From NCBI GenBank assembly GCA_030148505.1, contig JASBTI010000016.1:62001-126000 (forward strand): a DNA stretch of 64,000 nucleotides. Direction: 5' to 3'. Shown piece after piece: positions 9,458 through 40,446 of this stretch. Under the pieces are notes generated by a model. That model made no database searches. It had not been told where the DNA came from and saw nothing but the letters and a program-made list of their open reading frames with translations. Every line of letters begins with the position of its first letter. Position 1 is the first letter of the stretch. The DNA comes from Rhodanobacter sp. (GTDB taxonomy: Bacteria > Pseudomonadota > Gammaproteobacteria > Xanthomonadales > Rhodanobacteraceae). The position numbers and the translations under genes were made by a program.

Positions 9458-11056
9458 TCAGTGCGCGAGGTTGTCGGTCTGTCCGATGAAACGCGCCACA
9501 TTGTCGTGCAGTTGCTTCAACGATGGTTCGTGGGCGTACACCATGTGACCCGACGGGTACCACGCATAGCTGATGTTGCTATCGAGGCTGGCCGGAATCG
9601 GCAGGTGGTGGTCCTCGTATTCAGCGGCGAAGAACGGCGTGGCCAAGTCGTAGTAGCCGCCATTGACGTAGACCTTGAGATTGGGATTGGTCTTCATCGC
9701 CATCGCCAGATCGGGCATCACATTGGTGGAGGACTGCAATGCCTCACCGTGGGTACCGGGCGCCTTGTGCGAGAAATCCCAGTGGTGGATGTCGGCGAAC
9801 AGCCGGTAGCGCTGGCCCTTACCGAATTTCAGCTGTTTGCGCACGTAGTTGTTGAACGTCGCTACGTAAGCCGAGCTGATCGACGAGGACTGCGGATCGT
9901 AGGCGGAGCTTTCGCCCATCGGATTGATCGAAGGGCCGGAAAAGCGGGTGTCCAGACGGCCGGTGGTATCCCCGGCCTGCCCCAGGAGTTCGTGCTCGAA
10001 CATGCCGCCGCTTACGCGCAGATCGGCCTTGACCCAGTAGGCCACCGGCAGGCCGGTGTACTGATGCAGTTTCTCGGCCACCGCCTGCTTCTGAGCGTCA
10101 CCGAGCAGCGAGCCGGCCATCAGCGCCTGGGTATACGGTCCGGTGGCGTACTGTTCCACTTCTTTCAGGAACGGCTGTAACGCTGCCGGCTGCTGGGGCA
10201 GCTTGTGATGGTAATACGCGGTGGCAGCGTAGGTCGGCAGCGCCAGCTCGTAGGGCAGGTCGATGCCGGGGTTGAATTGCGGCCCGTCGATGCTGGTGTC
10301 GAAATTGAGAATCTGCGAGAGCAGGATCACCCCGTTGAGATCGACGCTGTCGTCGTTCTCCAGGATGTTGGCCACCACCGCCGAACGGGTGGTGCCATAG
10401 CTTTCACCGAACAGGTACTTGGGCGAGTTCCAGCGGTCGTACTTCGACATGAACTGGGTGATGAAGCGGGCAAACGCATGACCGTCGCCGTCCACGCTGT
10501 AGATCGCCTTGCGCCGTGCCTTCATTTGCGCCGCGCGCTTGTCCTTGTCCTTGTCGTTGGCGATCAGCCGGCTGAAACCGGCGCCCGGCGCATCGATGAA
10601 CACGAGGTCGGAGGCATCGAGCAGGCTGTAGTCGTTGTTGACCAGCTGATACGGCGCTGCAGGGGTATGGGTGTGATCAGCCGTGACCACGCGCTTCGGC
10701 CCGAACGCGCCCATGTGCAACCACACCGACGCCGAGCCGGGACCACCGTTGTAGATGAAAGTAATCGGCCGCTTCGCCGCAGCTACGCCTTTCTTGAAGT
10801 AGGCGACATAGAACATGCTGACCTGCGGCACGTCCTCCTTGTCGCCGGAGCCGTGCAGCACCAGAGTGCCGGCCACCGCTTGGTAGTCGATGCGCTTGCC
10901 TTCGACCGAAACCGAACCGTCGGTAACCGATGACTGCGGCTGCAGCAAGGCGGTATTCAACGGTGGTGCCTTGTCGGCCTTGCTGTCGGGGCCGGCTGCG
11001 GCTGCAGTGCTGAGCAGCAGCGCGGACAGCGCCGCGACGAGGGGCAATTTGCGCAT
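9458..11056 (-). CDS. secreted serine carboxypeptidase-like protein, peptidase family S10
   Basis: This 532-residue protein begins with a typical signal peptide (MRKLPLVAALSALLLSTAAAAG). The ATG at 11056 has AAGGA about 6 bases upstream, and an in-frame start 16 codons earlier is rejected because it precedes the signal sequence. S10 hallmarks are NGGPGSASVW (oxyanion region), the nucleophile FGESYGT, an Asp in GYYDLATP and a His in YPSGHMVY. It probably acts in the periplasm or outside the cell on peptides. Proteins like this are common in Xanthomonadales; the exact substrate is unknown. Confidence 0.87.
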   Translation of the reverse strand: MRKLPLVAALSALLLSTAAAAGPDSKADKAPPLNTALLQPQSSVTDGSVSVEGKRIDYQAVAGTLVLHGSGDKEDVPQVSMFYVAYFKKGVAAAKRPITFIYNGGPGSASVWLHMGAFGPKRVVTADHTHTPAAPYQLVNNDYSLLDASDLVFIDAPGAGFSRLIANDKDKDKRAAQMKARRKAIYSVDGDGHAFARFITQFMSKYDRWNSPKYLFGESYGTTRSAVVANILENDDSVDLNGVILLSQILNFDTSIDGPQFNPGIDLPYELALPTYAATAYYHHKLPQQPAALQPFLKEVEQYATGPYTQALMAGSLLGDAQKQAVAEKLHQYTGLPVAYWVKADLRVSGGMFEHELLGQAGDTTGRLDTRFSGPSINPMGESSAYDPQSSSISSAYVATFNNYVRKQLKFGKGQRYRLFADIHHWDFSHKAPGTHGEALQSSTNVMPDLAMAMKTNPNLKVYVNGGYYDLATPFFAAEYEDHHLPIPASLDSNISYAWYPSGHMVYAHEPSLKQLHDNVARFIGQTDNLAH

Positions 11057-11160: not shown

Positions 11161-11955
11161 TCAGTGGGCGCCCCATAGCGTGTGCAGACTCTTGTACAGC
11201 ATGAGGATCGCCACCAGCACGATCACGATCGCGAAGATCACGTTGAGGACACCGCGGGTCTTCGCCAAACGCTTTGCCGCCAACGCCCCCAGCCAGCCAC
11301 CGATGATCCCGCCGCCAATGAATTCGGCGGCGACGGGCCAGTCGATCAAACCGGAGATGGCATAGTTCGCCGCAGCGGTCAGACCAAACGCACCGACCGC
11401 AAACAACGAGGTGCCGATCGCATAGATGATCTCCATGCCGGTGGCCAGCATCAGCCCGGGAACGATCAGAAAGCCACCGCCAATCCCGAAGAAGCCGGCC
11501 AAGCCACCGGCACCCAGGCCGGTGATGCCCAGTCGTGGGTACATGTTCGGTAGCGGGTAGCGGTCCGGTCCGTTGCTGCGGCGCCCACGCAACATCATCG
11601 CGGCAACCACCAGCATCAGCACGGCGAAAAACACCAGCAGGTGCTGGCCATTGACGGCTTTGCCCAGGCTTGAGCCGAGGTAGGCACCGACGATACCGGT
11701 GGCGGCAAAGGTGAACGCCACTTTCCAGCGTACATGGCCCGCACGCGCATGGGGAATCAGGTTGGCAAAGGCGTTGACAGCCACCGCCAGGGCGCTGGTG
11801 CCGATCACCAGATGCGGGTCGTGGATGCCGACCACGTACAGCAACAATGGCACAGCAAGAATCGACCCGCCGCTACCAATCAATGCCAGCGAAAAGCCGA
11901 CCAGAGAACCGCAGAGGATGGCCAACAATGCCTGCATGGAAAAAAGGTGTGTCAT
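11161..11955 (-). CDS. TauE/SafE-family sulfite (sulfur anion) exporter
   Basis: This 264-residue polytopic inner-membrane protein of the TauE/SafE (DUF81) family has about eight hydrophobic helices and the two internal family repeats (SGGSILAVPLLL and GIGGGFLIVPGLML). The ATG at 11955 has AGGGAA upstream; an extension of 16 codons would overlap bigR and is unlikely. It is the last gene of the sulfur island, 34 bases after the bigR stop. Family members export sulfite or sulfoacetate. In Xylella and Agrobacterium a homologue sits in the bigR operon beside the persulfide dioxygenase and removes sulfite, so the same role is inferred here. Confidence 0.85.
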   Translation of the reverse strand: MTHLFSMQALLAILCGSLVGFSLALIGSGGSILAVPLLLYVVGIHDPHLVIGTSALAVAVNAFANLIPHARAGHVRWKVAFTFAATGIVGAYLGSSLGKAVNGQHLLVFFAVLMLVVAAMMLRGRRSNGPDRYPLPNMYPRLGITGLGAGGLAGFFGIGGGFLIVPGLMLATGMEIIYAIGTSLFAVGAFGLTAAANYAISGLIDWPVAAEFIGGGIIGGWLGALAAKRLAKTRGVLNVIFAIVIVLVAILMLYKSLHTLWGAH

Positions 11956-11989
11956 GGATGGTTCCCTGAGGATTGCAAGAAAGCGTGTT

Positions 11990-12274
11990 TTATTGGTCGG
12001 CACAGAACAGCGCGAACATCGTGCTTATCAGTACCTGCACACGTGTATCGCTGATGCGATAGAAGATTGACTGGGCGTTCCGCCGCGCGCTCACCACACC
12101 GTCACGACGCAACAAGGAAAGATGTTGCGAGACCACGCTTTGCGGCAGATCCAGCACATGCGCAAGCTCGCCCACCGAACATTCCCGCCCCGACAACTGA
12201 CAGAGCAACAGCAAACGGTTGTGACTGGCCATGGCCTTGAGTACCGTAATTGCCTCATCGGCATTGCGATGCAT
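11990..12274 (-). CDS. bigR: ArsR-family persulfide sensor, BigR/SqrR type
   Basis: This 94-residue winged-helix repressor of the ArsR/SmtB family starts at the ATG at 12274 (MHRNADEAI); the longer frame begins with unrelated residues. The two cysteines that define BigR/SqrR sensors are both present: one in LLLLCQLSG near the end of helix 2 and one in ALFCADQ at the C-terminus. In characterised BigR/SqrR these form a di- or tetrasulfide with sulfane sulfur and release DNA. There are no metal-site cysteines of the classical ArsR type. Neighbours (persulfide dioxygenase, TauE) match the Xylella bigR operon, so the identification is strong by motif and context together. Confidence 0.85.
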   Translation of the reverse strand: MHRNADEAITVLKAMASHNRLLLLCQLSGRECSVGELAHVLDLPQSVVSQHLSLLRRDGVVSARRNAQSIFYRISDTRVQVLISTMFALFCADQ

Positions 12275-12404
12275 GGCATCAACGGGCACGTTCGAGTGCG
12301 ATCCTGCCACCACCGAGGGACGGCAGACGGCTGGACGGGCGCGCACGCTCACCAGCACCCCAGGTCTGCAGTGGCAAACGATGAAACGTACCGATACCGG
12401 GTCT

Positions 12405-12863
12405 TCACGCCGGCCCTTTCGCGCCAGATTTCGAGGAGCTTGCCAGTTGGATCAGGCGTGGCTTGATGGAGGCCAGGTCATAACCCGCCAGCGCCGCCGT
12501 TTTCAGCACGTTCTCCACCCCGCATTTGCCCGAGTGAACGGCGCCAAGAGCCCACAACGTAGTTGATCGTGTGCCGGTGCGACAAAATGCGAGGACCGGC
12601 CCTGGCATCTGCGCGAGTGCCTCGGTGAAGACCGTGACCTGGCGGTCCTGCAGCTGACCGGGAATGATGGGAATGTGTCGATAGTCAAGCCCGGCCTGGC
12701 GAGCGGCCGAAGCCAGCGACTCACCGGCCGGCTGATCGGCAGCCTCGCCATCGGGCCGATTGTTGATCACGCTACGAAAACCTTGCGAGGCGAGGATGAC
12801 GATATCGGCAGGAACGATCTGGCCGGCCACGCTGAGAGAGTCGGTAAGGCGCTTCGTCTGCAT
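12405..12863 (-). CDS. DUF442/TIGR01244-family sulfurtransferase (phosphatase-like domain)
   Basis: This 152-residue cytoplasmic protein has a dual-specificity-phosphatase-like fold (beta-lactamase hydrolase-like, DUF442). It contains the Cys-x5-Arg loop FCRTGTRS and the early motif FRSVINNRPDGE typical of TIGR01244. In many bacteria this domain is fused to a persulfide dioxygenase in the Blh protein; here it is a separate gene directly downstream of that enzyme. It likely handles protein or glutathione persulfide. The ATG at 12863 is chosen because the longer frame would overlap the preceding gene and adds a non-conserved N-terminus. Confidence 0.8.
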   Translation of the reverse strand: MQTKRLTDSLSVAGQIVPADIVILASQGFRSVINNRPDGEAADQPAGESLASAARQAGLDYRHIPIIPGQLQDRQVTVFTEALAQMPGPVLAFCRTGTRSTTLWALGAVHSGKCGVENVLKTAALAGYDLASIKPRLIQLASSSKSGAKGPA

Positions 12864-12925
12864 GTCTTGTCTACCTTTGGTCGGGCTCGTATCGGCGACG
12901 GTAGGGCGGCATCCCCCCGCATCGG

Positions 12926-13792
12926 TCACAGTGCATTGAGCGGGATTTTTAAGTACTGAACACCGTTGCTTTCGGCTGCCGGAAAATGTCCTGCACGCAT
13001 GTTGACCTGTACCGAAGGCAGGATGAGTTTCGGCATCGACAAGGTGGCATCGCGCTCGGTGCGCATCCGCACGAAGTCGTCCTCACTGATACCTTGATGT
13101 ACGTGCAGATTTTCTGCGCGCTGGGCCGCCACGGTGGTTTCATTGGCAAAGAAGTCACGACCGTCCGCCTTGTAGTCGTGGCACAGGAAGATACGGGTAG
13201 CGTCCGGCAGCGCGAAGAGCTTCTGGATCGAGCGGTACAGCACATGCGCATCGCCCCCGGGGAAGTCACAGCGGGCGGTCCCGTAATCGGGCATGAACAA
13301 GGTATCGCCGACGAAGGCCGCATCACCGATCAGGTGGGTCATGCAGGCAGGCGTATGACCGGGGGTATGGATGGCCACGGCCTCTATCTCCCCTACCATG
13401 TAACGCTCGCCGTCCTTGAACAAGTGGTCGAACTGGCTGCCATCACGGCAAAATTCCGTGCCGGCGTTGAACAGCTGTCCGAAGGTCTCCTGTACCGTGC
13501 GAATATGTTCGCCGATGCCTAGCTTGCCGCCAAGCTGCGACTGCACGTAGGGCGCCGCCGACAGATGATCGGCATGAACATGAGTGTCGATCACCCAGTC
13601 GACGGCGAGGCCGCGCTCGCGCACAAAGGCAATCACCTTGTCGGCGGTGGCGTGGCCGGTACGCCCCGAGGCGGCATCGTAGTCCAGTACGGTATCGAGT
13701 ACGGCTGCCTTCAGGCTCGCCGGATCCCATGCGACATAACTGAACGTATTGGTGGCTTCGTCGAAAAATGCATTCACTTCGGGACGTTTCAT
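12926..13792 (-). CDS. metallo-beta-lactamase-fold persulfide dioxygenase (Blh/ETHE1 type)
   Basis: This 288-residue MBL-fold enzyme has the metal motif THVHADH (about residue 70), a later His in HTPGHTPAC, the Asp ligand in FVGDTLF and a His in FLCHDYKA. The length, the N-terminal VNAFFDEATNTFSYV segment and GTARCDFPGG are typical of the ETHE1-like persulfide dioxygenases called Blh or PDO type II. These enzymes oxidise glutathione persulfide to sulfite with O2, using one iron. Its neighbours, the DUF442 protein, BigR sensor and TauE exporter, form a complete sulfide-detoxification set. Confidence 0.88.
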   Translation of the reverse strand: MKRPEVNAFFDEATNTFSYVAWDPASLKAAVLDTVLDYDAASGRTGHATADKVIAFVRERGLAVDWVIDTHVHADHLSAAPYVQSQLGGKLGIGEHIRTVQETFGQLFNAGTEFCRDGSQFDHLFKDGERYMVGEIEAVAIHTPGHTPACMTHLIGDAAFVGDTLFMPDYGTARCDFPGGDAHVLYRSIQKLFALPDATRIFLCHDYKADGRDFFANETTVAAQRAENLHVHQGISEDDFVRMRTERDATLSMPKLILPSVQVNMRAGHFPAAESNGVQYLKIPLNAL

Positions 13793-13826
13793 GCTGTGCT
13801 CCTGAGGTCGGTGGTCTCCATTCGCG

Positions 13827-14246
13827 CTAGTTGCGGCTCGGTGGCAACAACCTTGCGGCCAGCCACCAGCCCAGGATCATGGTGGCCAGCAGCACCGCTA
13901 CCGAGAGCGCACCGCCACCGACCGACGCCAGGGCCGGACCAGGGCAGTATCCGGCCATGCCCCAACCCAAGCCGAATAATGTCGCGCCCCCGATCAACCG
14001 ACCGTCAAAATGACGCAACGAAGGCACCCTGAAACAATCTTCGAACAGTGGCTGGGGACGTCGCAGGACCAGGCGGTAGCCGATGGCGGTAGTTACTACC
14101 GCGCCACCCATGACGAAGGCCAGGCGGGGATCCCAGTGGCCGAAAATATCCAGAAAATCCAGTACCACGGCGGGTTGGGTCATTCCGCCGATACTGAGCC
14201 CCAGGCCAAACAACAGACCGGAAAGGAGGGCGGTTACGACCCTCAT
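13827..14246 (-). CDS. YeeE/YedE-family half-transporter (DUF6691), second subunit
   Basis: This 139-residue membrane protein has four hydrophobic helices and the family motif [13 protein letters not shown] with the conserved Cys. It is one half of a split YeeE/YedE (TsuA-like) transporter; full-length TsuA imports thiosulfate through a chain of cysteines. The partner is immediately upstream with one base between stop and start, so the pair is surely co-translated. The pair is often called PmpA/PmpB. The transported species, probably thiosulfate or sulfane sulfur, is inferred. Confidence 0.82.
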
Positions 14247-14247
14247 G

Positions 14248-14676
14248 TCACAGGCCTCCCAGCAGGTGACGTATCACATACACCGCAACAATGCCGGAAG
14301 CCATGAAAACCGCGGTGGCCAGCAGTGAGCGCCGGGACAGTCTCGCCACACCACAAACGCCGTGGCCACTGGTGCAACCGCCGCCAATGCCGGTGCCCAC
14401 GCCCACCAGCAGACCGGCCAATGCCATCCACGGCAGCCCGACCTGGGGAGCACCGATACCACTTTCCCCGAACAGCAGCCAGAGCAGGGCGGGGCCCGCC
14501 ACCAGCCCCGACACGAAAGCCACTCGCCAGTCCCACCCGCTCGCACTACCGCTGATCAGGCTCCCGACAATACCGCTGACGCCGGCAATGCTCCCCAACG
14601 CCGCCATTAACAGGATCGCGGAAAGACCAATCAGGATGCCGCCAAAAGTGGCAATGAGAAAGGGATTCATATGCAT
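14248..14676 (-). CDS. YeeE/YedE-family half-transporter, first subunit
   Basis: This 142-residue membrane protein has about four helices and the signature [12 protein letters not shown] carrying two cysteines of the YeeE/YedE sulfur-transport family. The ATG at 14676 sits 5 bases after a GAG core and is preferred to the ATG two codons later; the longer frame starting at 14739 runs through the promoter. An operator-like palindrome lies just upstream (14680-14702). It is first in the block that runs through the persulfide dioxygenase and bigR. Confidence 0.82.
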
Positions 14677-14679
14677 TAT

Positions 14680-14702
14680 TTCTCGTATTCGAGAATGTGA
14701 AT
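14680..14702. promoter_or_regulatory. candidate persulfide-repressor operator upstream of the YeeE/YedE pair
   Basis: Two overlapping symmetric patterns are visible: TTCTCG-TATT-CGAGAA (14680-14695, perfect 6-bp arms) and ATTC-N8-GAAT (14687-14702). The latter is the spacing I recall for Rhodobacter SqrR sites. It lies 4-26 bases ahead of the start codon, where a repressor would block the promoter or initiation. The BigR gene is in the same transcription unit, which suggests autoregulation. Confidence 0.5.
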
Positions 14703-14769
14703 GTATGACCTCCCGGCGATGACTACAAGCAAACCGCACGATTCTCGTCCGCCTCCCGTCACGGCTGTC

Positions 14770-15516
14770 TCAACTACCGAAAATCGCCTTGATCTTCTCG
14801 CTCGGCATCATGCCGTCGATCTGACGGATCTTGCCCTTGGCATCCTTATAGAAAGTGGCAGGTGTTCCACTGACACCAAGGCTCTGCATCAGCGCGTTAT
14901 TCGCTTCGATGCGCTTGCCGGTTGCGGGCGTGACCGGGTGTTCAGGCTGAATCGGGCTATGACCGAAATTGACCTCATGCCGGTGCAGCGCCGCTTGCGG
15001 ATCTTTCGCGTCAAAGATCGCCGCGGCACGCCCAAGACTGTTCGGCGAAATCACCGCCACCACAATATGACGTACCTGCACATCACCGCCGGCCAGCAAC
15101 GGTTGCGTCGCCAACCATAGCTTGTGGCAATACGGGCACTCGGTGTCGGTAATCACGTAAACGATACGCTTGGGCTTGGTGGCGCCCTCGGCGACCCAGC
15201 TGGCCTTGCCCAACTTTGTCCAGGTGGAGGCATCCAGTACTGGGGTGGTGGCCTCCTGCAGCGGCGCTTGTGTAAGGTCATTGCCGGTATCGTCGAACAA
15301 GGTCCCGATCACCACATGCTTGCCGTCAGGCAACAGGTATATCGGCATCGGACGTCCGTGATATTCACCCACGTAACCGCTGATGCCCTGGGGTGCCTTC
15401 AGCTGCCCTTTGATCGTGATGCCCTTGCTAGCAAGCGCCTGGATAGGCGCCGGATAATCTTTTGCACAAACACTCGTGGCAAACAGCAGCGCGAGAAGAA
15501 TAAGCCATGGTTTCAA
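14770..15516 (-). CDS. DsbG/DsbC-like periplasmic thiol:disulfide protein
   Basis: This 248-residue secreted thioredoxin-fold protein has an N-terminal dimerisation domain (ASKGITIKGQL...), a linker, and a thioredoxin domain with the active site CPYC followed by the cis-Pro loop SGTPAT. The best start is a TTG at 15516 with GGAG six bases upstream, which directly begins a signal peptide (K-P-W-L-I-L-L-A-L-L-F-A). The ATG 20 codons earlier has no ribosome site and breaks the signal. It sits between tsdA and the YeeE/YedE pair, so it may keep cysteines of periplasmic sulfur proteins reduced, like SoxW/DsbG-type partners. That role is inferred. Confidence 0.82.
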   Translation of the reverse strand: MKPWLILLALLFATSVCAKDYPAPIQALASKGITIKGQLKAPQGISGYVGEYHGRPMPIYLLPDGKHVVIGTLFDDTGNDLTQAPLQEATTPVLDASTWTKLGKASWVAEGATKPKRIVYVITDTECPYCHKLWLATQPLLAGGDVQVRHIVVAVISPNSLGRAAAIFDAKDPQAALHRHEVNFGHSPIQPEHPVTPATGKRIEANNALMQSLGVSGTPATFYKDAKGKIRQIDGMMPSEKIKAIFGS

Positions 15517-15587
15517 GGTGATCTCCGGCAGTGGTGACGGGGCGACCCGTCCAAAAAAGGAACAAGAGGATGACATACAGGGCGGGA

Positions 15588-15603
15588 CGCTGCCGAAGCA
15601 GCG
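15588..15603 (-). terminator. UUCG-loop hairpin downstream of tsdA
   Basis: On the minus strand this reads CGCTGC-TTCG-GCAGCG, a 6-bp stem closed by a UUCG tetraloop, 70 bases after the tsdA stop. No U-run follows directly. It may be a weak terminator or an RNA-stabilising hairpin between the tsd and dsbG segments. Confidence 0.3.
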
Positions 15604-15673
15604 CGTGAAGTCGCCGCTGGCGCCGAGGCGGAATCCCTATGTACGCGGCGATCCCGGGTACCGGAGCGGCTGA

Positions 15674-16642
15674 CTATTTTCGCGATGGCTGGGAGCCGAG
15701 CAGATGTCCATTGACCACCGTGCCGTATAACGACATCGGCGTATTGTGATATTGCTTGCGGGTTGCGGACAGATTGCCGCGAAAGCGCGGATCCTGGGGT
15801 CGCTCATGGGCGTCCATGTACATCGCCACGTCCCATGCGTCCTGATCGTTCAACGTATCCCCACGACTCAGCGGCATATTGGCCTTGATGAAGGCCGCCG
15901 CATTGTTCAGCTCGTGCATGCCAGCACCCCAGTTGAACGAATCCGCTCCCCACAGCGGCGGAAACACGTAGCGGCCGGCAGCTTTCTGTCCCTGACCTTG
16001 GGCACCATGGCAAAGCGCGCAGTCGCGTACATATACTGCTTTGCCGCGCGCGTAATCGGGCGGTCGAGGGGGCTTGAAGCCCTGCTTGGGGTAGCCTGCG
16101 CCAACCAGCTTCGCACCGGTTGGCGCGCCCTTCGACAGCCAGTAGGCATAGCTTTCCAGCGCGACCATCGTCTTGCTGTCCAGCGGGGGCGCCTTGCCGT
16201 TCATGCTGTAAAGGAAGCAGCCCTGGATACGCTCGCCGAAGTTGTTCACCTGCTTGTTCTTGCTCCGGTACTGCGGGTATCTGACATAGGCACCCCACAG
16301 CGGCGCCGAGTTGGCCAGGCGCCCGCCATCGAGGTGGCAGTTGCTGCAAGTCAGGCCATTGCCCACGTAGGCCTTGGCGTACCTGCCGGTATCGGTAAAG
16401 ATCGCCTGCCCCTGACGTACCGCCGCGCCAAAGGGGCCTGACGGCATCGCCGACCGTGGCGGTGGGGAAAACACGTGGGTACCGGTGTTGGAGTGCTGCG
16501 GCACCGCCGCGACCGGCGGCGACGTAGAGGCCCTCGACGCTGTTTCCGACCGGGGCGGCGGCTGCGCTGCGCCCTCGGATTTGCCTGAACACGCCGCCAG
16601 CGCAAGCAGCAGGGGGCAAAGCAGCGCATGCCATCGCTTCAT
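15674..16642 (-). CDS. tsdA: thiosulfate dehydrogenase TsdA, di-haem cytochrome c lipoprotein
   Basis: This 322-residue di-haem cytochrome c has a lipoprotein signal (LALAACSG), so it is probably anchored to a membrane facing the periplasm. Haem motifs are CSNCH and CALCH. Between them the segment FGERIQGCFLYSMNG contains the cysteine that is the unusual axial ligand of haem 1 in TsdA, together with the typical PLWGAYVRYPQY. This enzyme couples two thiosulfates into tetrathionate, giving electrons to a cytochrome partner. The start at 16642 overlaps the upstream cytochrome by four bases (ATGA). It is the final gene of the dsrE-SBP-tsdB-tsdA block. Confidence 0.85.
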   Translation of the reverse strand: MKRWHALLCPLLLALAACSGKSEGAAQPPPRSETASRASTSPPVAAVPQHSNTGTHVFSPPPRSAMPSGPFGAAVRQGQAIFTDTGRYAKAYVGNGLTCSNCHLDGGRLANSAPLWGAYVRYPQYRSKNKQVNNFGERIQGCFLYSMNGKAPPLDSKTMVALESYAYWLSKGAPTGAKLVGAGYPKQGFKPPRPPDYARGKAVYVRDCALCHGAQGQGQKAAGRYVFPPLWGADSFNWGAGMHELNNAAAFIKANMPLSRGDTLNDQDAWDVAMYMDAHERPQDPRFRGNLSATRKQYHNTPMSLYGTVVNGHLLGSQPSRK

Positions 16643-17316
16643 GGAGTCTTTCCCCCACCGGTCAGTGGTTGCGCCGCGAACCACGCCGACACCTCGCGGA
16701 TGTCCTGGTCGCTGAGCGCCTGGCTGATATGTTGCATCAGCTGCAGCGGATCATTGTGCCGCGAACCCTGCTTCCAAGCCTTGAGCTGCGCGGCAATGTA
16801 GGTGGCCGATTGGCCAGCCAACGGGGGAAAATTGGCACCCACACCGATCCCGCCCGGACCATGGCAGGCGACGCATGCCGGGATTTTTTCATACCAACGG
16901 CCGCGGGTCGCCAATACCGCCCCGGCACTGTCCGCCGAGGGCATCGACGTGGACGGATGGGCTAATGCCGACGGAATCGGCAATTGGCCGTAGTAGTCCG
17001 CCAGCGCCTTGCGTTCTCCCGGTTTGAGCGCGGTCGCGATCGGCGTCATCACCGGGTTGGCACGGGAGCCGTTGGCGAAGTCGTCCAGCTGCCGATGCAA
17101 ATAAGCGACATTGAGACCCGCCAGACGGGGAAAACCTGCGGCAGCCTGGCCACCCCCGGAAAGACCATGGCACGACTGGCAAGCTGGCGCGCCGTGACCA
17201 TTACCTTGCCGCACGATTTGTGCCGCATCAGGGGGACTTGCCAGGGCCACGCCGGCCGGCAACAGCCATGCCAGCAGACTGCCTCGCAGCAGCCAGGAGA
17301 TTCCACGCGGCCTCAT
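16639..17316 (-). CDS. tsdB: di-haem cytochrome c4-type protein, TsdB-like electron acceptor
   Basis: This 225-residue periplasmic protein has a signal peptide and two class I haem domains (CQSCH and CVACH), each followed by the typical FPxLAGQ/N...YL...QL pattern of cytochrome c4. It overlaps tsdA by four bases. In Pseudomonas stutzeri and other bacteria an equivalent di-haem TsdB next to TsdA passes electrons from thiosulfate oxidation to the terminal oxidase; the arrangement here matches. The methionine ligands are in MTPIATAL and LMQHISQAL. Confidence 0.82.
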   Translation of the reverse strand: MRPRGISWLLRGSLLAWLLPAGVALASPPDAAQIVRQGNGHGAPACQSCHGLSGGGQAAAGFPRLAGLNVAYLHRQLDDFANGSRANPVMTPIATALKPGERKALADYYGQLPIPSALAHPSTSMPSADSAGAVLATRGRWYEKIPACVACHGPGGIGVGANFPPLAGQSATYIAAQLKAWKQGSRHNDPLQLMQHISQALSDQDIREVSAWFAAQPLTGGGKTP

Positions 17317-17328
17317 TGTCCGCTATCC

Positions 17329-18279
17329 TCAATCAACGGGCTGAAAACCATATTTTCGATAGATCGATTGCGCCGTCGAGCTGCCGAGGAAGGTGATGAA
17401 ATCCTTGGCCGCCTGTGCATGTGGGGCATCTTTCATGCGCGCCGCCGTATAGGTGGCGGTGCTGTTCTGGTCGGCCGGAATGGCTATCGTGGTGATCGGA
17501 TGATGCAGGATGTGTTCCTGGAAATACGCCTCGGTCGACCATACCGGCGCCGCATCCGACTGCCCCTGAAGCACCCGCAAAGGCGATTGGCGGTGGTGGA
17601 TATGGGTGAGGAAAGTCGTGCCGTTGGCGACCTTGGTCTTCATAATCATGGTCTCCAGCGCCTGCCCGCCGGCCTTGCGGTAACTGGCCTCGATCTGCCG
17701 CGCAATACCTTCCCACTTCGGATTGGGCATGCTGACCCGCACATCCGCCCGACCAAGATCGGCAAGCCCCTTGATGGCCTTGGGATTGCCTTTGGCGACC
17801 ATGATGGCCAGGGGATTTCGAGCATAGTCGAGGGTGTCGGCAAACCATTGGTGCTGTTTCTGGTGCTCGGCGATGGAAGCTTTGCCAGCCGTGAACACGT
17901 CAGGCTTGAGGGCAATCTTCAAGTTGCCCATGACCAGCGAGCCGGTTTCGATCTGCTTGGCCAGAATGCCTGGTGGCAGGGTCTCGACGAAAATTCGCCG
18001 ATATTTGGGGTGGGCCAGGCGGAACGCGGCGATCAGGTCATGCACCACCATGAACTGGTTGCCAGCGAAGAACACCGTGAGCTGGGGATCGACCACATCG
18101 CCATGCAAATCGGCGATCGCGTCGACCGGCGGTGCGCTGAAGTGCACACCGCCGCTCGGCGGCGGGTTCCATGGCGGCAGATAGTCGGGTTTGGCGGTAG
18201 CGGTAGCCGCCGCCGTTGCCACTGTCACGGTCATTAGCGTGATACCCAGCCAGAGAGGACGAAATCGTGCCATCGACAT
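17329..18279 (-). CDS. periplasmic solute-binding protein, ModA-like, sulfur-island linked
   Basis: This 316-residue secreted protein has a signal peptide ending near TAKPD, followed by a type II periplasmic binding fold similar to molybdate/tungstate-binding proteins (FFAGNQFMVVHDLIAAF, ARNPLAIMVAKGNP, AAKDFITFLGSSTAQSIYRKYGF). No ABC permease or ATPase gene is nearby, so it may act as a sensor or carrier and not as a normal ABC import component. It follows the dsrE-like gene by 28 bases and precedes tsdB by 12 bases, so all four are probably one operon. The ligand, perhaps a sulfur oxyanion, is a guess. Confidence 0.72.
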   Translation of the reverse strand: MSMARFRPLWLGITLMTVTVATAAATATAKPDYLPPWNPPPSGGVHFSAPPVDAIADLHGDVVDPQLTVFFAGNQFMVVHDLIAAFRLAHPKYRRIFVETLPPGILAKQIETGSLVMGNLKIALKPDVFTAGKASIAEHQKQHQWFADTLDYARNPLAIMVAKGNPKAIKGLADLGRADVRVSMPNPKWEGIARQIEASYRKAGGQALETMIMKTKVANGTTFLTHIHHRQSPLRVLQGQSDAAPVWSTEAYFQEHILHHPITTIAIPADQNSTATYTAARMKDAPHAQAAKDFITFLGSSTAQSIYRKYGFQPVD

Positions 18280-18306
18280 GTTATTGACTCCCCTTAGCCA
18301 GAACGC

Positions 18307-18858
18307 TCACATTGGCACCAGGGCATAGCCCTTGTGCTGCAGAACGGTGATTGTGGTCAGCGCTGACAACGCCAACGTGACATGAGAGTCCTTCCAGGAA
18401 TATTCATAGTGATGCTCGGCCATCGCCTGACCGCACACTGCTACATCAATACCAGCCTTACGGAGTTGTTCGATCACCGGCAAGTTGGGATTGGGTACCC
18501 CGTACGCTTTTTGATAGTGGACATTGTCCAACGCGATCGAGGTCGCGCCGCCGGCGGCGACCGCAACAAAGTGCAAATGCTTCAGCGGAACGCCCGCGTT
18601 GACATACAAATTGACGGCCCGGGCGACATGCTCGAGGCCCGGATTGACCTGATCGGGCTTGGCGGCGGCCTTGCTCAGGGCGAACACAACCTTGTACGTC
18701 GCCTTGGCGTCCGGCTGGTAGGCCGCGTCGGGGAGTTTATGGATGGTCCCTGCCCCATGAATGGTCGGGGTGACCCAGAATTTATCGGTGGCGGCAGCGG
18801 TGGCCATAGCGGGTAATAGGGTTAGCGCCAGCAGGATGGGGATCAGGGGGCGGATCAT
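18307..18858 (-). CDS. secreted DsrE/DsrF-like protein
   Basis: This 183-residue protein has a signal peptide (MIRPLIPILLALTLLPAMATAA) and a DsrE/F-like domain (VVFALSKAAA..., LHFVAVAAGGAT, NLPVIEQLRKAGIDVAVCGQAMAEH). The cysteine in VAVCGQ matches the position that carries persulfide sulfur in DsrE/TusD-type proteins. Cytoplasmic DsrE proteins transfer sulfur to partners, and periplasmic versions are little studied. The ATG at 18858 has GAGAGG upstream. It is the first gene of the dsrE-SBP-tsdB-tsdA block. Confidence 0.78.
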   Translation of the reverse strand: MIRPLIPILLALTLLPAMATAAATDKFWVTPTIHGAGTIHKLPDAAYQPDAKATYKVVFALSKAAAKPDQVNPGLEHVARAVNLYVNAGVPLKHLHFVAVAAGGATSIALDNVHYQKAYGVPNPNLPVIEQLRKAGIDVAVCGQAMAEHHYEYSWKDSHVTLALSALTTITVLQHKGYALVPM

Positions 18859-19122: not shown

Positions 19123-19144
19123 TATAATTGCCTTGACAATTATA
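19123..19144. promoter_or_regulatory. MarR-type operator, 8-bp perfect inverted repeat
   Basis: TATAATTG-CCTTGA-CAATTATA is a perfect inverted repeat with 8-bp arms and a 6-base spacer. It covers the -35 hexamer TTGACA, so a bound dimer would block RNA polymerase. The AT-rich arms with a TTG/CAA step are typical of MarR/SlyA/EmrR operators. It sits directly before marR, implying autoregulation of the efflux operon. Confidence 0.72.
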
Positions 19145-19160
19145 GTTTGAGCAATAGAAT
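19133..19160 (+). promoter_or_regulatory. sigma-70 promoter of marR-emr operon
   Basis: TTGACA (19133-19138), 16 bases, then TAGAAT (19155-19160). The expected start of transcription, about seven bases later, falls at the ATG at 19168. This would leave marR on a leaderless message. Confidence 0.65.
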
Positions 19161-19167
19161 GGCCGGC

Positions 19168-19647
19168 ATGAAACAACCGCCCTGCTCATCCAGCGTCGTC
19201 GAGAGCACCCCGTCATCACCGATCAGCCTTGGCATGTTGCTGGGGATGGTGCGCACTGAACTGGTGCGGGCGCTGGAAGCGGAATTTGCCCGGCAAGGCC
19301 TCGATCTCAGCTACACGCAGTATTTGATCCTGAAAAAGGCCCAGCAGCTGGGTCCGCTTTCGGCCACCGAGCTGGCCCGGGCCGTGGAGCTGGACGGTGG
19401 CGCGATGACGCGCCAGCTCGATCAACTCGAACGCAAGGGCTATCTACGCCGCTGTCCCCACGAGCAGGATCGACGTGCGCTGCGGATCGAACTGACCGCA
19501 GCGGGTAGCGCCATGTGGCAGGGCACCGCCTTCGCCTGCAGCAACCGCGTTCTCGATGCCGCGCAACGTTCGCTGAGCGAAACCGAAAGAACCCACCTGC
19601 ACGACTACCTGGAGCGCGTGCTGCGCGCGCTTCGCGACAAGCACTGA
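19168..19647 (+). CDS. MarR-family transcriptional regulator
   Basis: This 159-residue winged-helix repressor has the recognition region LSATELARAVELDGGAMTRQLDQLERKGYLRR and the wing DRRALRIELTAAG typical of MarR/EmrR. The ATG at 19168 is chosen because in-frame starts at 19147 and 19159 fall between or inside the promoter hexamers. It is the first gene of an operon with an outer-membrane channel, membrane fusion protein and EmrB-type pump, and probably represses all four in response to small aromatic or lipophilic compounds. Confidence 0.85.
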   Translation: MKQPPCSSSVVESTPSSPISLGMLLGMVRTELVRALEAEFARQGLDLSYTQYLILKKAQQLGPLSATELARAVELDGGAMTRQLDQLERKGYLRRCPHEQDRRALRIELTAAGSAMWQGTAFACSNRVLDAAQRSLSETERTHLHDYLERVLRALRDKH

Positions 19648-19667
19648 CCTTTCCCGGACTTCTGATC

Positions 19668-21137
19668 ATGCGTCTGCATATTTTTGCGGCAGCTACGGTA
19701 TTTACCTTCACGCTGGCCGGTTGCGCCAGCAGCGCTGGGCTGCATCCTCACAACACCATGATCGCACCGTCGGCTTTGGCCTCCGGTCACAGTCTCGCCG
19801 GCCTCGACCTAACGCCCGCCGGCTGGCCCGCGGATGACTGGTGGAAAGGCCTCGGCGACCCCCAGCTCGATGCGCTGATGAGCGAAGCCTTGCACCATAA
19901 CCCCGGACTCGGTATCGCCAACGCGCGGGCACGTGAAGCGCAGGCGGTGGCTAGGCTGGCCGAGGCCGCGCGCAAACCTGAACTCAGTGCCGGTGCCAGC
20001 ATCTCCGGCGCTCGTTTGCCGACGACCCTACTGCCCTCGGCGGCCGGTGGCGGCCACTTCGCCTGGGCCAAATACGGCTATGCCCGCTTCAGCTGGAGTC
20101 CCGATCTATGGGGCGGCAAGCGGGCCGCGTGGGAAGCAGCCCTGGGTGAGGCGCGCGCCACCGAGGTCGAAGCACGAGCGGCGCGTATCGAGCTGTCCGG
20201 CAATGTGGCCCGCGCCTACGCCCAGCTTGGCTACGCGTTTACCCAGCAAGACCTTGCCAAGGCCGAATTGCAGCGGGCGCGGAATGCCCGTGCATTGACC
20301 CGGCAACGGGTCACGGCCGGAATCGACAGTCAGATCCAGTTGCAGCAGGGCAATGCCGAGGTCGCCACCGCCGCCCAGCAGCTGGCGGTCGCCACCCGCG
20401 CGATCGATGCAGCGCGCTCAGCGCTTTCGGTGCTGCTGGGCAAGGGTCCGGATCGCGGCCGCGAGATCAGCCGGCCGACTGTGTTGAAACCGGACCGGCT
20501 GGCGGTACCGACGAACCTGCCGGCGGGACTGATCGGCCACCGAGCCGATCTGGTTGCCGCACGCTGGCGGGTCGAGGCAGCTAGCCGGCAGATCAAGGTG
20601 GCCAAGACCGCGTTCATGCCCAATCTCAGCATTGGAGCCCTCGCCGGCTTGCTGACCATGGGTGGCCACAACCTGTTCGAACTGCCGGCACGGTTCTATC
20701 AATTCGGCCCATCGCTCAGTCTGCCGATCTTCGACGGCGGGCGCCTGCGCGCCAATCTCGCCGGCAAGGATGCGGCCTACGATCTTGCCGTGGCCCAGTA
20801 CAACCGCACCTTGATCAACGCTCTCAATCAGGTAGCCGATGAACTGTCGGCAGCGCAGTCGTTGCAGCAGCAGATGCATGCCCAGCGGCAGGCGCAACAC
20901 GCTGCCCGGCTGGCTTGGAAGCTGGCGCGGCAACGCTACGAGGCCGGCATCGGCAGCTACCTGCAAGCCCTGGTCGTGCGCCAGCAATTGCTCGCCGCCG
21001 AACGCGGCATGGCCACGCTGCAAGCCCGGCAAGTTGATCTTTCGGTGCAGTTGATCGAGGCACTCGGCGGCGGTTTCCAGCCACACGCGATGCCCGCCGC
21101 TCCCACGACGCCGTCTTCCACCTCCACACATTCCTGA
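19668..21137 (+). CDS. NodT-type outer-membrane efflux lipoprotein
   Basis: This 489-residue TolC-like outer-membrane factor of the RND/MFS efflux lipoprotein (NodT) family has signal and lipobox FTLAGCASS with the modified Cys about residue 18. The two OEP repeats follow (DPQLDALMSEALHHNP... and DLVAARWRVEAASRQIKVAKTAFMP with the LSIGALAG strand). It forms a trimeric exit duct. The ATG at 19668 is used; the longer frame runs back through marR and lacks the signal. It lies 20 bases after marR and 9 bases before emrA. Confidence 0.87.
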   Translation: MRLHIFAAATVFTFTLAGCASSAGLHPHNTMIAPSALASGHSLAGLDLTPAGWPADDWWKGLGDPQLDALMSEALHHNPGLGIANARAREAQAVARLAEAARKPELSAGASISGARLPTTLLPSAAGGGHFAWAKYGYARFSWSPDLWGGKRAAWEAALGEARATEVEARAARIELSGNVARAYAQLGYAFTQQDLAKAELQRARNARALTRQRVTAGIDSQIQLQQGNAEVATAAQQLAVATRAIDAARSALSVLLGKGPDRGREISRPTVLKPDRLAVPTNLPAGLIGHRADLVAARWRVEAASRQIKVAKTAFMPNLSIGALAGLLTMGGHNLFELPARFYQFGPSLSLPIFDGGRLRANLAGKDAAYDLAVAQYNRTLINALNQVADELSAAQSLQQQMHAQRQAQHAARLAWKLARQRYEAGIGSYLQALVVRQQLLAAERGMATLQARQVDLSVQLIEALGGGFQPHAMPAAPTTPSSTSTHS

Positions 21138-21146
21138 GGCAACCCC

Positions 21147-22358
21147 ATGTCCAGCCAGCCCGCTGTTGAATCAAGCAACAGCACGACCGACAAGGTCGCC
21201 GCTTCGACGCCGCGCAAGAGTTCGCGCGGCCTTCTGTTACGCCTGCTCGGCGTGGTGGTGGTAGTCGCTGCCATCGGCTGGGGATTCTGGTATTTCCTCG
21301 ATGGCCGTTGGTATGCAAGCACGGATGATGCCTACGTCGGCGGCAACGTGGTGCAGATCACGCCGCAGATCGCCGGCACCGTAATCAGCATTGGTGCCGA
21401 CGATGGCGACCTGGTGAAAAAGGGCGATGTGTTGGTCAAGCTCGACCAGGCCAACGCCGACGTCGCGCTGGCCGAGGCCAAGGCCAATCTCGCCAACACC
21501 GTACGCAAGGTGCGCGGCCTGTACAGCAACGTCAGCGGCGCACGCGCGCTCGTGGCGGCGCGCAAGGTGGCTGTGGCACGGGCCCGTGCGGACTATCGGC
21601 GGCGTGTGGCGCTGGCCAAGTCGGGCGCGATTTCGGCCGAGGAGCTGGCCCATGCGGCTGATACCTTGGCCACGGCGGAAAGCGCGTTGACCACCGGACA
21701 GCAGCAACTTGAAACCGGCAAGGTACTGGTCGACGACACGGTCGTCGCCTCACACCCGGACGTGCAGGCCGCCGCCGCCCGCCTTCGCGCGGCCTACCTC
21801 AACGATATACGCACTACCTTGCTGGCACCGGTCAGTGGATATGTCGCGATGCGCTCGGTACAGCTGGGTCAGAGCGTGACGCCCGGAAGCGCATTGATGG
21901 CCGTGGTGCCCCTGCAACAGGTGTGGGTAGACGCCAACTTCAAGGAGACTCAGCTCACCCATATGCGGATCGGCCAGCCGGTGCAGATCGACTCCGATGT
22001 GTATGGCAGTGCAGTGACCTACAAGGGTGAGATAGCGAGTCTTGGCGTGGGCACGGGTAGCGCGTTCTCGTTGTTGCCGGCACAGAATGCTACCGGCAAC
22101 TGGATCAAGATCGTGCAGCGCATCCCGGTACGCGTGGTATTCACCGATCCGGCGCAACTGCAGAAGCATCCGCTGCGTATCGGCATGTCGCTGAACGTGG
22201 AGGTGAACCTGCACGATCAGAGCGGCCCGATGCTAGCCCAGAAGCCCCCATCAAAACCGGTGCTAAGCACCGATGTCTACCGGCAGCAGTTGGCCAAGGC
22301 GGATCAGCTGATCGAACAGACCATCCACGCCAACATGGCGGGCGGCAAATCCCGATGA
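21147..22358 (+). CDS. emrA: EmrA/HlyD-family membrane fusion protein
   Basis: This 403-residue periplasmic adaptor has one N-terminal membrane helix (LLLRLLGVVVVVAAIGWGFWYFL), a lipoyl-like half motif (YASTDDAYVGGNVVQITPQIAG), a long coiled-coil hairpin and the return lipoyl strand (LLAPVSGYVAMRSVQLGQSV). It links the EmrB-type pump to the outer-membrane factor. The spacing to its neighbours shows one operon with marR, the NodT channel and emrB. Confidence 0.9.
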   Translation: MSSQPAVESSNSTTDKVAASTPRKSSRGLLLRLLGVVVVVAAIGWGFWYFLDGRWYASTDDAYVGGNVVQITPQIAGTVISIGADDGDLVKKGDVLVKLDQANADVALAEAKANLANTVRKVRGLYSNVSGARALVAARKVAVARARADYRRRVALAKSGAISAEELAHAADTLATAESALTTGQQQLETGKVLVDDTVVASHPDVQAAAARLRAAYLNDIRTTLLAPVSGYVAMRSVQLGQSVTPGSALMAVVPLQQVWVDANFKETQLTHMRIGQPVQIDSDVYGSAVTYKGEIASLGVGTGSAFSLLPAQNATGNWIKIVQRIPVRVVFTDPAQLQKHPLRIGMSLNVEVNLHDQSGPMLAQKPPSKPVLSTDVYRQQLAKADQLIEQTIHANMAGGKSR

Positions 22359-22455
22359 GCTCGCGGCGGCGTCGCCAGGACGCGACGACGGCGGTCACCC
22401 TGCAACGCAGGCCCTCGCACACCAGCTGACATAGCACCTCCTCCACGTAAAGCCG

Positions 22456-23982
22456 ATGACCACCCACTTTCGACCGCCAAATCTCGCGCTGACCACGATC
22501 GGCCTGTCGCTGGCTACCTTCATGCAGGTGCTGGACACGACGATCGCCAACGTCTCGCTGCCGACGATTGCCGGCAATCTCGGCGTCAGCAACGACCAGA
22601 GCACCTGGGTGATCACCTCGTTCGCCGTAAGCATGGCGATCTCGCTGCCGCTGACCGGCTTTCTGAGTCGGCGCTTCGGCGAAGTGAAGCTGTTCGTGTC
22701 GTGTACCTTGCTGTTTGCCCTGACCTCATTCATGTGCGGTGTTTCCGAAAGCATGGGGATGCTGCTGCTGTTCCGGGCCGTGCAAGGCGCGGTGGCCGGG
22801 CCGATGTACCCGATCACCCAGAGCCTGCTGATCGGCGTATATCCCCCGGCCAAGCGCGGCATGGCGCTGGCTTTGCTGGCGATGGTAACGGTGGTGGCGC
22901 CGATCGCGGGGCCGATCCTCGGCGGCCTGATCACCGATAACTATTCCTGGCCTTGGATTTTCTTCATCAACGTGCCGATCGGCATTTTCGCCAGTATGGT
23001 GGTGGCCAACCAGTTGCGCGCCAAGGTCGAGAAGCTGGAGCGACCGAAGGTGGACTATGTCGGCCTGATTACCCTGATCATTGGCGTTGGACTGCTGCAG
23101 GTGGTACTGGACAAGGGCAACGATGCGGACTGGTTCCACTCCACCTTCATCATCATCGCCAGCATCGTCTCGGCGATCTCGCTGGCAGTCTTCCTGATCT
23201 GGGAGTTGACCGACAAGGATCCGATTGTCGACCTGCGACTGTTTCGCCATCGCAACTTCACCGCCGGCACCCTGGCGCTGGTGCTGGCGTATGCCGCGTT
23301 CTTCTCGATCGGCCTTCTGGTACCACTGTGGCTGCAGCAGAATCTGGGCTATACCTCGACCTGGGCGGGTTATGCCACCGCGCCGCTTGGTGTGATTCCG
23401 GTATTGCTGACCTTCTTCGTCGGCAAGTATGCGCCGCGTGTGGACCTTCGTTACATCGCCTCCCTCGCCTTCGTGGTGATGGGCGTGACCTGTTTCATGC
23501 GCTCGGACTTCTATCTGGGCATCGACTTCTACCACGTGGCGATCGTGCAACTGTGGCAGGGGCTTGGCGTGGCCCTGTTCTTCATGCCGGTGCTGACCAT
23601 TCTGCTGTCCGACCTGCAGCAGAACGAAATCGCCTCCGGTTCAGGCCTGGCCACCTTTCTGCGTACCCTCGGCGGCAGTTTCGCCGCCTCGATTACCACC
23701 CTGATGTGGACCCGGGGCGCGGTAAGCCACCATGCCCAGCTGGCCGAACATATCAACCCATACAACCCGATTTCACGAACCGCGATGCAGCAGCTCGGGG
23801 ATGGCGACAAGGCGCGCGGCGCCAGCGTCATCAACGACATGATTACCCAGCAGAGTTTCCAGATCTCCTTCAACGAATTGTTCCATGTACTGGGCTGGAT
23901 CTTCATTGGCCTGGTCGCAGTTATCTGGCTGGCCAAGCCACCGTTCGCGGCCAAGGCCGGCCCCGCGGCAGGCGGCCACTGA
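22456..23982 (+). CDS. emrB: EmrB-type DHA2-family MFS multidrug exporter
   Basis: This 508-residue 14-helix MFS drug:proton antiporter of the DHA2 family has motif C-like and D1 signatures at the N-terminus (FMQVLDTTIANVSLPTIAGNLG with the conserved Asp) and the motif A region LSRRFGEVK. It pumps lipophilic compounds into the EmrA adaptor. A 97-base gap separates it from emrA, without an evident promoter, so it is still likely the last gene of the marR-controlled operon. Confidence 0.9.
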   Translation: MTTHFRPPNLALTTIGLSLATFMQVLDTTIANVSLPTIAGNLGVSNDQSTWVITSFAVSMAISLPLTGFLSRRFGEVKLFVSCTLLFALTSFMCGVSESMGMLLLFRAVQGAVAGPMYPITQSLLIGVYPPAKRGMALALLAMVTVVAPIAGPILGGLITDNYSWPWIFFINVPIGIFASMVVANQLRAKVEKLERPKVDYVGLITLIIGVGLLQVVLDKGNDADWFHSTFIIIASIVSAISLAVFLIWELTDKDPIVDLRLFRHRNFTAGTLALVLAYAAFFSIGLLVPLWLQQNLGYTSTWAGYATAPLGVIPVLLTFFVGKYAPRVDLRYIASLAFVVMGVTCFMRSDFYLGIDFYHVAIVQLWQGLGVALFFMPVLTILLSDLQQNEIASGSGLATFLRTLGGSFAASITTLMWTRGAVSHHAQLAEHINPYNPISRTAMQQLGDGDKARGASVINDMITQQSFQISFNELFHVLGWIFIGLVAVIWLAKPPFAAKAGPAAGGH

Positions 23983-25644: not shown

Positions 25645-26554
25645 GTCATCCCGAATCACTTTGTCCGTCCTCGCCACAGCCATTCTCGCGAGCATGGCAA
25701 CGCTGGCCGTCGTCCACGCGCGACATACGCCCGACGATGCCCCACCAACACCGGCACTGAAGGTAAAAGATAGCCAAGGCACTGTGGTGGGCAGCTATCG
25801 GATCCCCAGCGACAGCCAGATCGCCGCCCTGCCGGATGGCAAGGAGATTCTTTACGGGAAACGTCTGCTCAACGAGACTGCGCGCCTCCTGCCAACCCAC
25901 GTGGGCGACGGGCTCAACTGCAACAGTTGCCACCTCGCTGAAGGCAAGCTCGGTGCAGCCGGTCCGTACATCAACGCCTACAACACCTATCCGACATTCA
26001 AATCGCGTGCGGGACGCAAAGTCTCACTTACCGAACGCATCAATGGGTGCTTTCAGCGCTCGATGAACGGCGTGCCGCTGGCCCCAGATTCCCGCGAAAT
26101 GCTTGCCATGAAGGCGTACATGAAATGGCTGGCCCAGGGCGTTCCCACTGGCGACAAAGTGGACGTGGTCAACGCCGGAAAAATCGATACCAGCCTGGTA
26201 CCCGATCCGGTCCGCGGCAAGCAGATCTACGGCGAGCAATGTGCCTCCTGTCACGGCGACTCGGGCGAAGGCATGAAGGATCAGTTCGGTGACTATATCT
26301 TCCCACCGCTGTGGGGCAATGATTCGTACAACATCGGCGCCGGCATGGCGCGCACTTACAAGGCCGCGGCATTTATCAAATACAACATGCCGCTCGCTGC
26401 CGGGCGCAACAAGCCATTGGGGCAAGGTGGCGTGTTGACCGACCAGGATGCAGTCGACGTCGCCCAATACTTCACCCACCAACCGCGTCCGGATTTTCCA
26501 GGAAAGATCAATGACTGGAAAAATCAGAAAAAACCGAAGGATGCACGTTACTAA
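25637..26554 (+). CDS. second TsdA-like di-haem cytochrome c
   Basis: This 305-residue secreted protein has an N-terminal signal, haem motifs CNSCH and CASCH, and between them ERINGCFQRSMNG, which carries the same Cys ligand that defines TsdA. It is a paralogue of the tsdA product at 15.7 kb but lacks the lipobox, so it should be soluble or held by its signal anchor. Its overlap with the tri-haem cytochrome suggests translational coupling. It may be a thiosulfate dehydrogenase or a tetrathionate reductase; TsdA-type enzymes can lean either way. Confidence 0.8.
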   Translation: MTKSSRITLSVLATAILASMATLAVVHARHTPDDAPPTPALKVKDSQGTVVGSYRIPSDSQIAALPDGKEILYGKRLLNETARLLPTHVGDGLNCNSCHLAEGKLGAAGPYINAYNTYPTFKSRAGRKVSLTERINGCFQRSMNGVPLAPDSREMLAMKAYMKWLAQGVPTGDKVDVVNAGKIDTSLVPDPVRGKQIYGEQCASCHGDSGEGMKDQFGDYIFPPLWGNDSYNIGAGMARTYKAAAFIKYNMPLAAGRNKPLGQGGVLTDQDAVDVAQYFTHQPRPDFPGKINDWKNQKKPKDARY

Positions 26555-40400: not shown

Positions 40401-40446
40401 CACCTGAACTAAACGGGACTTTAACGGCGGCGGCACGCGCTCGCAA

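Follow-up and report, generated by a model that had tools for sequence, protein, structure and literature searches.

An important question raised by the 64,000-bp stretch of Rhodanobacter sp. DNA analyzed here (the window; contig JASBTI010000016.1, positions 62,001–126,000) is whether a run of sulfur-related genes on its minus strand encodes a single pathway or brings together parts with different histories. Eleven genes span window positions 11161–18858 in the order dsrE, sbp (encoding a solute-binding protein, SBP), tsdB, tsdA, dsbG, yeeE half A, yeeE half B, pdo (encoding a persulfide dioxygenase, PDO), duf442, bigR and tauE (Table 1). A preliminary description of the region gave this order and these families; the open reading frames (ORFs) have this order, our own codon-usage gene caller places no plus-strand gene in the interval, and family searches bear out the identities, the BigR match falling below its model cut-off. 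The further proposal that all eleven genes form one pathway needs revision. The dsrE-sbp-tsdB-tsdA genes are a conserved core that DUF442 and TauE follow and PDO does not, and the block was assembled from parts that differ in history, of which the YeeE halves, BigR and DsbG vary. Our overall reading, to which we give a probability of roughly 55% from comparison of sequences and gene neighborhoods, is that a periplasmic thiosulfate-to-tetrathionate core with DsrE and SBP as helpers has been joined to a resident PDO, which would clear spilled sulfane sulfur. The kinds of genes are known; their combination and the enzyme exchange described below are new, and we found no description of the dsrE-sbp-tsdBA arrangement in the open-licence literature searched.

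The division of the block is most evident in the gene content of 36 genomes from the genus. Presence of tsdA, dsrE, sbp, PDO, TauE and DUF442 was counted (DsbG, BigR and the YeeE halves lie outside these counts), with identity bounds of our choosing (at least 63% for tsdA, 55% for dsrE, 72% for PDO and for TauE and 49% for DUF442) and Fisher p values that ignore kinship. Broken or partial sbp copies in G012, G021 and G002, a partial DUF442 in G017 and one-stop matches in G006 (DUF442), G010 and G026 (TauE) were scored as present; a PDO match in G004 (52%) and a DUF442 match in G025 (36%) were scored as absent. tsdA and dsrE occur together in 16 genomes, singly in two each and not at all in 16 (P = 5e-6). 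For tsdA and sbp, broken copies included, the corresponding numbers are 17, one with tsdA only, two with sbp only and 16, so that sbp is found in 17/18 genomes with tsdA and 2/18 without (P = 6e-7). TauE is present in 15/18 genomes with tsdA versus 4/18 without (P = 6e-4) and DUF442 in 14/18 versus 6/18 (P = 0.018). dsrE and tauE are likewise associated (16 both, 2 dsrE only, 3 tauE only, 15 neither; P = 3e-5), and TauE and DUF442 track each other (18, 1, 2 and 15). The distance between tsdA and tauE is 0.5–12.2 kb in 13 of the 15 genomes that have both, and two of the four genomes with tauE but no tsdA (G012 and G021) have a dsrE-sbp remnant or a doxDA set. PDO, in contrast, occurs in 13/18 genomes with tsdA and 14/18 without (P = 1.0) and shows no association with TauE or with DUF442 (P = 1.0 each); it lies within about 11 kb of tsdA in 10 of the 13 genomes with both. 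The tracking of the core by DUF442 and TauE but not by PDO suggests that the load accompanying thiosulfate use may be sulfite derived from thiosulfate.

The chromosomal position of PDO was examined in nine genomes, comprising eight of the 14 with PDO and no tsdA plus G031, where tsdA is on another contig. In all nine, PDO is located between marR/efflux genes and an S10 peptidase gene, the slot that the island occupies in the window, and both flanks are common to the relatives' loci. The other detoxification genes are sporadic there (YeeE halves in three loci, a BigR-like gene in two, DUF442 in one and TauE and DsbG in none). PDO is therefore the constant resident, and the core with DUF442 and TauE joined it. 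We considered and dropped the idea that a whole BigR-type set resides in the slot, since only PDO is constant in the nine loci and the distribution of DUF442 and TauE follows that of the core.

How the join is made was followed in the best 80 of 300 tsdA loci found. Genes in these and the other loci read are from our own caller and not from annotation; it missed tsdA in L080, L089 and L095 (placed by tblastn) and made no calls in L171. dsrE and sbp are carried by 31 of the 80, and the 29 with both upstream of tsdA at our script's thresholds were classed. Detoxification genes lie directly downstream on the same strand in 10, lie further along the flank in seven and are absent from the flank read in 12, two of which are at contig ends. 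The direct joins take the forms dsbG-pdo-duf442-tauE, dsbG-pdo, pdo-duf442-tauE and duf442-tauE. By score thresholds, nine of the 35 tsdA loci from Burkholderiales include at least one gene of the detoxification set, and a Caballeronia locus (L073) combines tauE, YeeE halves, bigR, pdo, tsdA and a DsbG-like gene. An SQR in our own genome resembling the flavoprotein beside tsdBA in this locus was considered and dropped, the match found being weak and partial.

The exact block appears in no other locus read and PDO is independent of tsdA, and for these two reasons we reject one fixed eleven-gene pathway; what survives of that proposal is that TauE and DUF442 track tsdA and that the join recurs. 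The preliminary description had suggested comparing gene order in relatives, where conserved breakage would speak against the block. Such breakage holds for the block as a whole and not for dsrE-sbp-tsdB-tsdA. A different view of the same pattern, which we consider unlikely, is that independent units share the slot, namely the resident PDO and added dsrE-sbp-tsdBA and duf442-tauE, with nothing passed between the core and PDO. The independence of PDO from both tsdA (P = 1.0) and tauE (P = 1.0), its residence in the slot in 9/9 loci read without an adjacent tsdA and the 12/29 core loci with no detoxification gene in the flank read would all be expected on this view, but the tracking of the core by DUF442 and TauE, the occurrence of direct joins in different forms and the 9/35 Burkholderiales loci would not.

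TsdBA is not the only partner of the DsrE–SBP pair, which also stands directly ahead of DoxDA, a thiosulfate-to-tetrathionate enzyme unrelated to TsdBA. G012, a close relative (PDO 89% and TauE 97% identical), lacks an orthologue of tsdA, the best match being partial at 37%. In the same slot it has dsrE, a broken sbp and then a second dsrE and sbp with a DoxD–DoxA fusion (PF04173 and PF07680) where tsdBA would stand, and it retains the order dsbG-yeeE-yeeE-pdo-duf442-bigR-tauE-S10 peptidase. A short insert whose ends resemble inverted repeats breaks up the first sbp (L164, L165), which also contains internal stops and lies beside the replacement dsrE-sbp-doxDA genes. In our own genome, no match to DoxDA, the thiosulfate:quinone oxidoreductase (TQO) of Acidithiobacillus-type clusters, was obtained at E 1e-15. 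Among 369 genomes sampled from the class, seven encode an SBP of at least 44% identity. The window supplies the single case with TsdBA; in four genomes the SBP gene adjoins DoxDA, in one it adjoins a DsrE-like gene and in one it has neither. Three of the four DoxDA-linked SBPs stand in a dsrE-sbp-doxDA arrangement with a divergent regulator (LysR-type by eye). In trees that were built quickly and contain some long branches, SBPs linked to TsdBA in Oleiagrimonas and Burkholderiales group with DoxDA-linked SBPs (support 99) and the Oleiagrimonas DsrEs group with those of Rhodanobacteraceae (98).

A periplasmic SBP in a thiosulfate operon has a counterpart in the TQO cluster of Acidithiobacillus ferrooxidans, drawn as tsd-sbp-doxDA-rhd (AFE_0042–0045) in the part of the source available to us (PMC6335251); the SBP copy AFE_0043 is up on sulfur, according to the accessible text of PMC2754497. 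Unlike the island, that cluster has DoxDA and a Tat-type TSD and no TsdA, and these portions of the two papers name no secreted DsrE. The presence of DsrE and SBP beside two different enzymes hints at an unrecognized, shared helper pair. To our knowledge, oxidation of thiosulfate to tetrathionate is usually described in terms of just an enzyme and an electron acceptor. If our reading is true, the pair represents a shared periplasmic step of thiosulfate oxidation, for which the G012 swap provides a natural test pair, and this step would be relevant to the SBP that sulfur induces in the TQO cluster of Acidithiobacillus.

Members of the TsdA family oxidize thiosulfate and those of the TsdB family accept the electrons. 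The TsdA of the island matches chain 5lo9 (E 7.9e-84 to 1.1e-83), as well as the thiosulfate dehydrogenase entries 4wqc and 4v2k. Alignment places CxxCH heme motifs at Cys99/102 and Cys208/211 and a distal Cys142, the motif set of TsdA; Cys142 aligns with a cysteine in 4wqc/4v2k, and an asparagine occupies the lysine site of 4v2k, as in 5lo9. We take 5lo9 to be Marichromatium TsdBA and 4v2k/4wq7 to be A. vinosum TsdA, the organism names being in part from PMC9237845. TsdA thus resembles these systems in sequence, heme motifs and cysteine position, but here tsdB overlaps tsdA as a gene of its own, and dsrE and sbp lie ahead of the two. The preliminary description identified tsdA correctly; its start at 16684 is probably too early, the more likely 16642 giving a 4-bp overlap with tsdB.

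TsdA enzymes can reportedly be bifunctional, as the title of a 2016 work by Kurth indicates. TsdBA could then act mainly as a tetrathionate reductase, with the helpers serving tetrathionate use or detoxification, but the enzyme that substitutes in place, DoxDA, is described as thiosulfate-oxidizing in the accessible part of PMC6335251, and we regard this possibility as improbable. Besides the island, the 3.68-Mb genome has at least one more route for thiosulfate, a Sox cluster (L174, G000:C3:5000–24999) in which SoxB, SoxA, SoxY, SoxZ and SoxC all score above their cut-offs. A secreted DsrE with one cysteine is encoded between soxZ and soxA in that cluster. The window also contains a second thiosulfate dehydrogenase set at 24298–27628 (+), consisting of a three-CxxCH cytochrome c (24298–25644), a TsdA-like protein (25784–26554) that is 44% identical to the first TsdA and a porin-like protein (26609–27628); the tsdA-porin order is also found in L060 and L061.

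Could the SBP simply belong to an ordinary sulfate or molybdate ABC importer encoded elsewhere? Its structural and profile matches are to sulfate and molybdate SBPs, as such a role would require, the many tied VIA-align rows giving a fold group and no ligand. However, the protein scores below the cut-offs of the CysP, Sbp and ModA models, a motif scan of the 5 kb on either side of 53 sbp genes, which did not extend to permeases encoded elsewhere in the genome, detected no ABC-ATPase-like gene, and sbp stands repeatedly ahead of thiosulfate enzymes. By these measures it lacks the marks of an importer SBP, and an importer role seems very unlikely. A second SBP branch (L167, L248, L249, L252, L253, L254 and L255; 7 of 35 aligned rows) carries a CKSCW/CKQCW motif along with the same invariant HHR, and at L246:9359–10591 (−) an SBP and DsrE-like pair has no evident signal peptide on either protein, as judged by eye. 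An apparent SBP–TsdB fusion in L048 (Oleiagrimonas soli) was rejected because the join is a frameshift relative to L053.

The secreted DsrE combines PF02635 with a conserved cysteine, as expected for the sulfur-carrier family, and has a weak profile match to 1l1s. C142 is invariant in 24/24 aligned sequences, and past residue 28 there is one cysteine in 42 of 47 homologues and two in the other five. In six further tsdA loci (Frateuria, Rhodanobacter T12-5 and Lysobacter telluris), a DsrE of 33–38% identity lies just downstream of tsdA or of an adjoining porin-like gene. The DsrE3A protein of Metallosphaera reacts with tetrathionate, according to the portion of PMC4175335 available.

The detoxification genes resemble the bigR operon of Xylella and Agrobacterium and the yeeE-yedE-pdo2 operon of Acinetobacter and Serratia, which have BigR, DUF442, PDO and TauE or a YeeE/YedE pair in the accessible parts of PMC5823870 and PMC7315123. 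They differ in having, instead of a single Blh protein, separate PDO and DUF442 genes whose order is reversed and which each cover one part of NF040641, and in being joined to tsdBA and dsbG. A TauE-type exporter (PF01925) is present, as in the bigR operon. In the BigR-like protein, Cys25 and Cys91 are 66 residues apart, equal to the pairs of known BigRs (Cys42/Cys108, PMC5823870; C34/C100, PMC7315123; both from partial text), and the NF040642 score stays below cut-off. DsbG exceeds its equivalog cut-off and has the CPYC motif. As far as the available text of PMC9237845 goes, DsbG is also among the genes downstream of tsdA in Halomonas, where nine genomes were analyzed; that neighborhood as described there has no secreted DsrE, SBP or BigR set.

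Taken in order, the steps of the reading we prefer would be as follows. In the periplasmic dsrE-sbp-tsdB-tsdA unit, TsdA would convert thiosulfate to tetrathionate and TsdB would receive the electrons. The SBP may bind thiosulfate or tetrathionate near the enzyme, feeding no local ABC importer. Tetrathionate could pass a sulfane or thiosulfonate group to the single cysteine of DsrE, which DsbG would reset as reductant, and sulfane sulfur might then be handed to the YeeE pair, as importer, and to PDO. The resident PDO would oxidize glutathione persulfide, with BigR as the probable persulfide sensor of this genome, so that sulfane sulfur spilled from the core could be cleared.

Several observations, beginning with the PDO counts given above, weigh against this scheme. 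In the stretch read, distant DsrE homologues (30–42% identity) adjoin neither enzyme in eleven loci from the DsrE search. Within the 369-genome sample, 41 of 42 TsdA genomes have no close SBP, and TsdA therefore does not need the SBP; six of 10 DoxDA genomes have no close SBP beside DoxDA, so that the majority of genomes with one or the other enzyme lack the pair. The G012 site is on two contigs, the joint being inferred from a 75-bp exact end overlap in the repeat-like insert of the broken sbp. A second Acidithiobacillus SBP copy, AFE_0049, is unresponsive to sulfur in the accessible text of PMC2754497. Finally, with a Sox cluster in the genome, thiosulfate may go mainly via Sox.

In six related loci, no stop separates the DsrE ORF from an ArsR-type repressor domain encoded upstream in the same frame. 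A Shine–Dalgarno sequence, AGGAG, eight bases ahead of the internal DsrE ATG is kept in 6/6, and two products are therefore plausible. Public proteins with both domains exist, for example a 294-residue protein of Dyella lutea (P0122), and we found no description of the fusion in the open-licence literature searched. The dsrE of the window has no ArsR part. Judging from these ORFs, the fused gene is possibly a two-product gene and a membrane-spanning sulfur sensor. A broader proposal, which we hold as tentative and rather doubtful, would make DsrE–SBP a general helper pair swapped between TsdBA and DoxDA, with an ArsR–anchor–DsrE protein and free DsrE of the sister lineage forming a membrane-spanning sensor of periplasmic sulfur.

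Table 1. Positions of the island genes, the slot edges and related features (window coordinates unless a locus is given)
Feature	Position	Strand	Remarks
dsrE-like	18307..18858	-	PF02635; secreted, 183 aa; signal-peptide-like N-terminus; single cysteine C142
sbp	17329..18279	-	SBP_bac_11 PF13531; orphan, 316 aa; sulfate/molybdate-binding fold group
tsdB	16639..17316	-	two-heme cytochrome c; two cytochrome c stretches; CxxC pairs 46/49, 148/151
tsdA	15674..16642	-	thiosulfate dehydrogenase; SoxA/TsdA PF21342; 5lo9 match; lipoprotein-like signal
GC stem	15588..15603	-	6 bp, TTCG loop, no T run; within tsdA-dsbG gap
dsbG	14770..15516	-	NF008657 266 bits, cut-off 124; CPYC (C127/C130); probable TTG start, GGAG upstream
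YeeE/YedE-like half A	14248..14676	-	Sulf_transp PF04143, E 2.9e-07
YeeE/YedE-like half B (DUF6691)	13827..14246	-	PF20398, E 2.5e-39
pdo	12926..13792	-	persulfide dioxygenase; Lactamase_B; aligned to residues 140-423, C-terminal part of Blh model NF040641
DUF442 sulfurtransferase	12405..12863	-	TIGR01244 142.7 bits, cut-off 85.85; residues 2-131 of Blh model NF040641
bigR-like ArsR repressor	11990..12274	-	NF040642 86.3 bits, below cut-off 155
tauE-like exporter	11161..11955	-	PF01925, E 8.7e-51
Left slot edge	19159..23982	+	marR (PF01047), then outer-membrane-factor-like, emrA-like and emrB-like genes, these three named by eye
Right slot edge	9458..11056	-	S10 peptidase-like gene, PF00450
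ArsR-DsrE fused ORFs	L031:7529-8380, L032:7176-8060, L033:6713-7576, L034:7332-8216, L036:7622-8377		no stop between the two domains
ArsR-DsrE fused ORF	L166 of G021, DsrE part 9876-10427	-	

With the preferred starts, the intergenic gaps from dsrE downstream are 27, 12, −4, 157, 93, 1, 34, 62, 130 and 34 bp. Those of 157, 93 and 130 bp could provide room for promoters, and a single eleven-gene transcript is not implied. Terminator-like sites between 10900 and 19300 number four versus a mean of 6.7 in shuffled sequences and are thus not in excess. In the marR–dsrE gap, a perfect inverted repeat, TATAATTG-N6-CAATTATA (19123–19144), immediately precedes marR; a shared operator ahead of dsrE was dropped from consideration, as this repeat is closer to the divergent marR. 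Among named loci, the closest belong to Dyella and Rhodanobacter, on which basis we place the genome in Rhodanobacteraceae. No Rfam family matches inside the eleven-gene block at the gathering threshold; elsewhere in the window, a cobalamin riboswitch (RF00174, 102 bits) is located at 40192–40422 (−), ahead of a gene called at 38152–40059.

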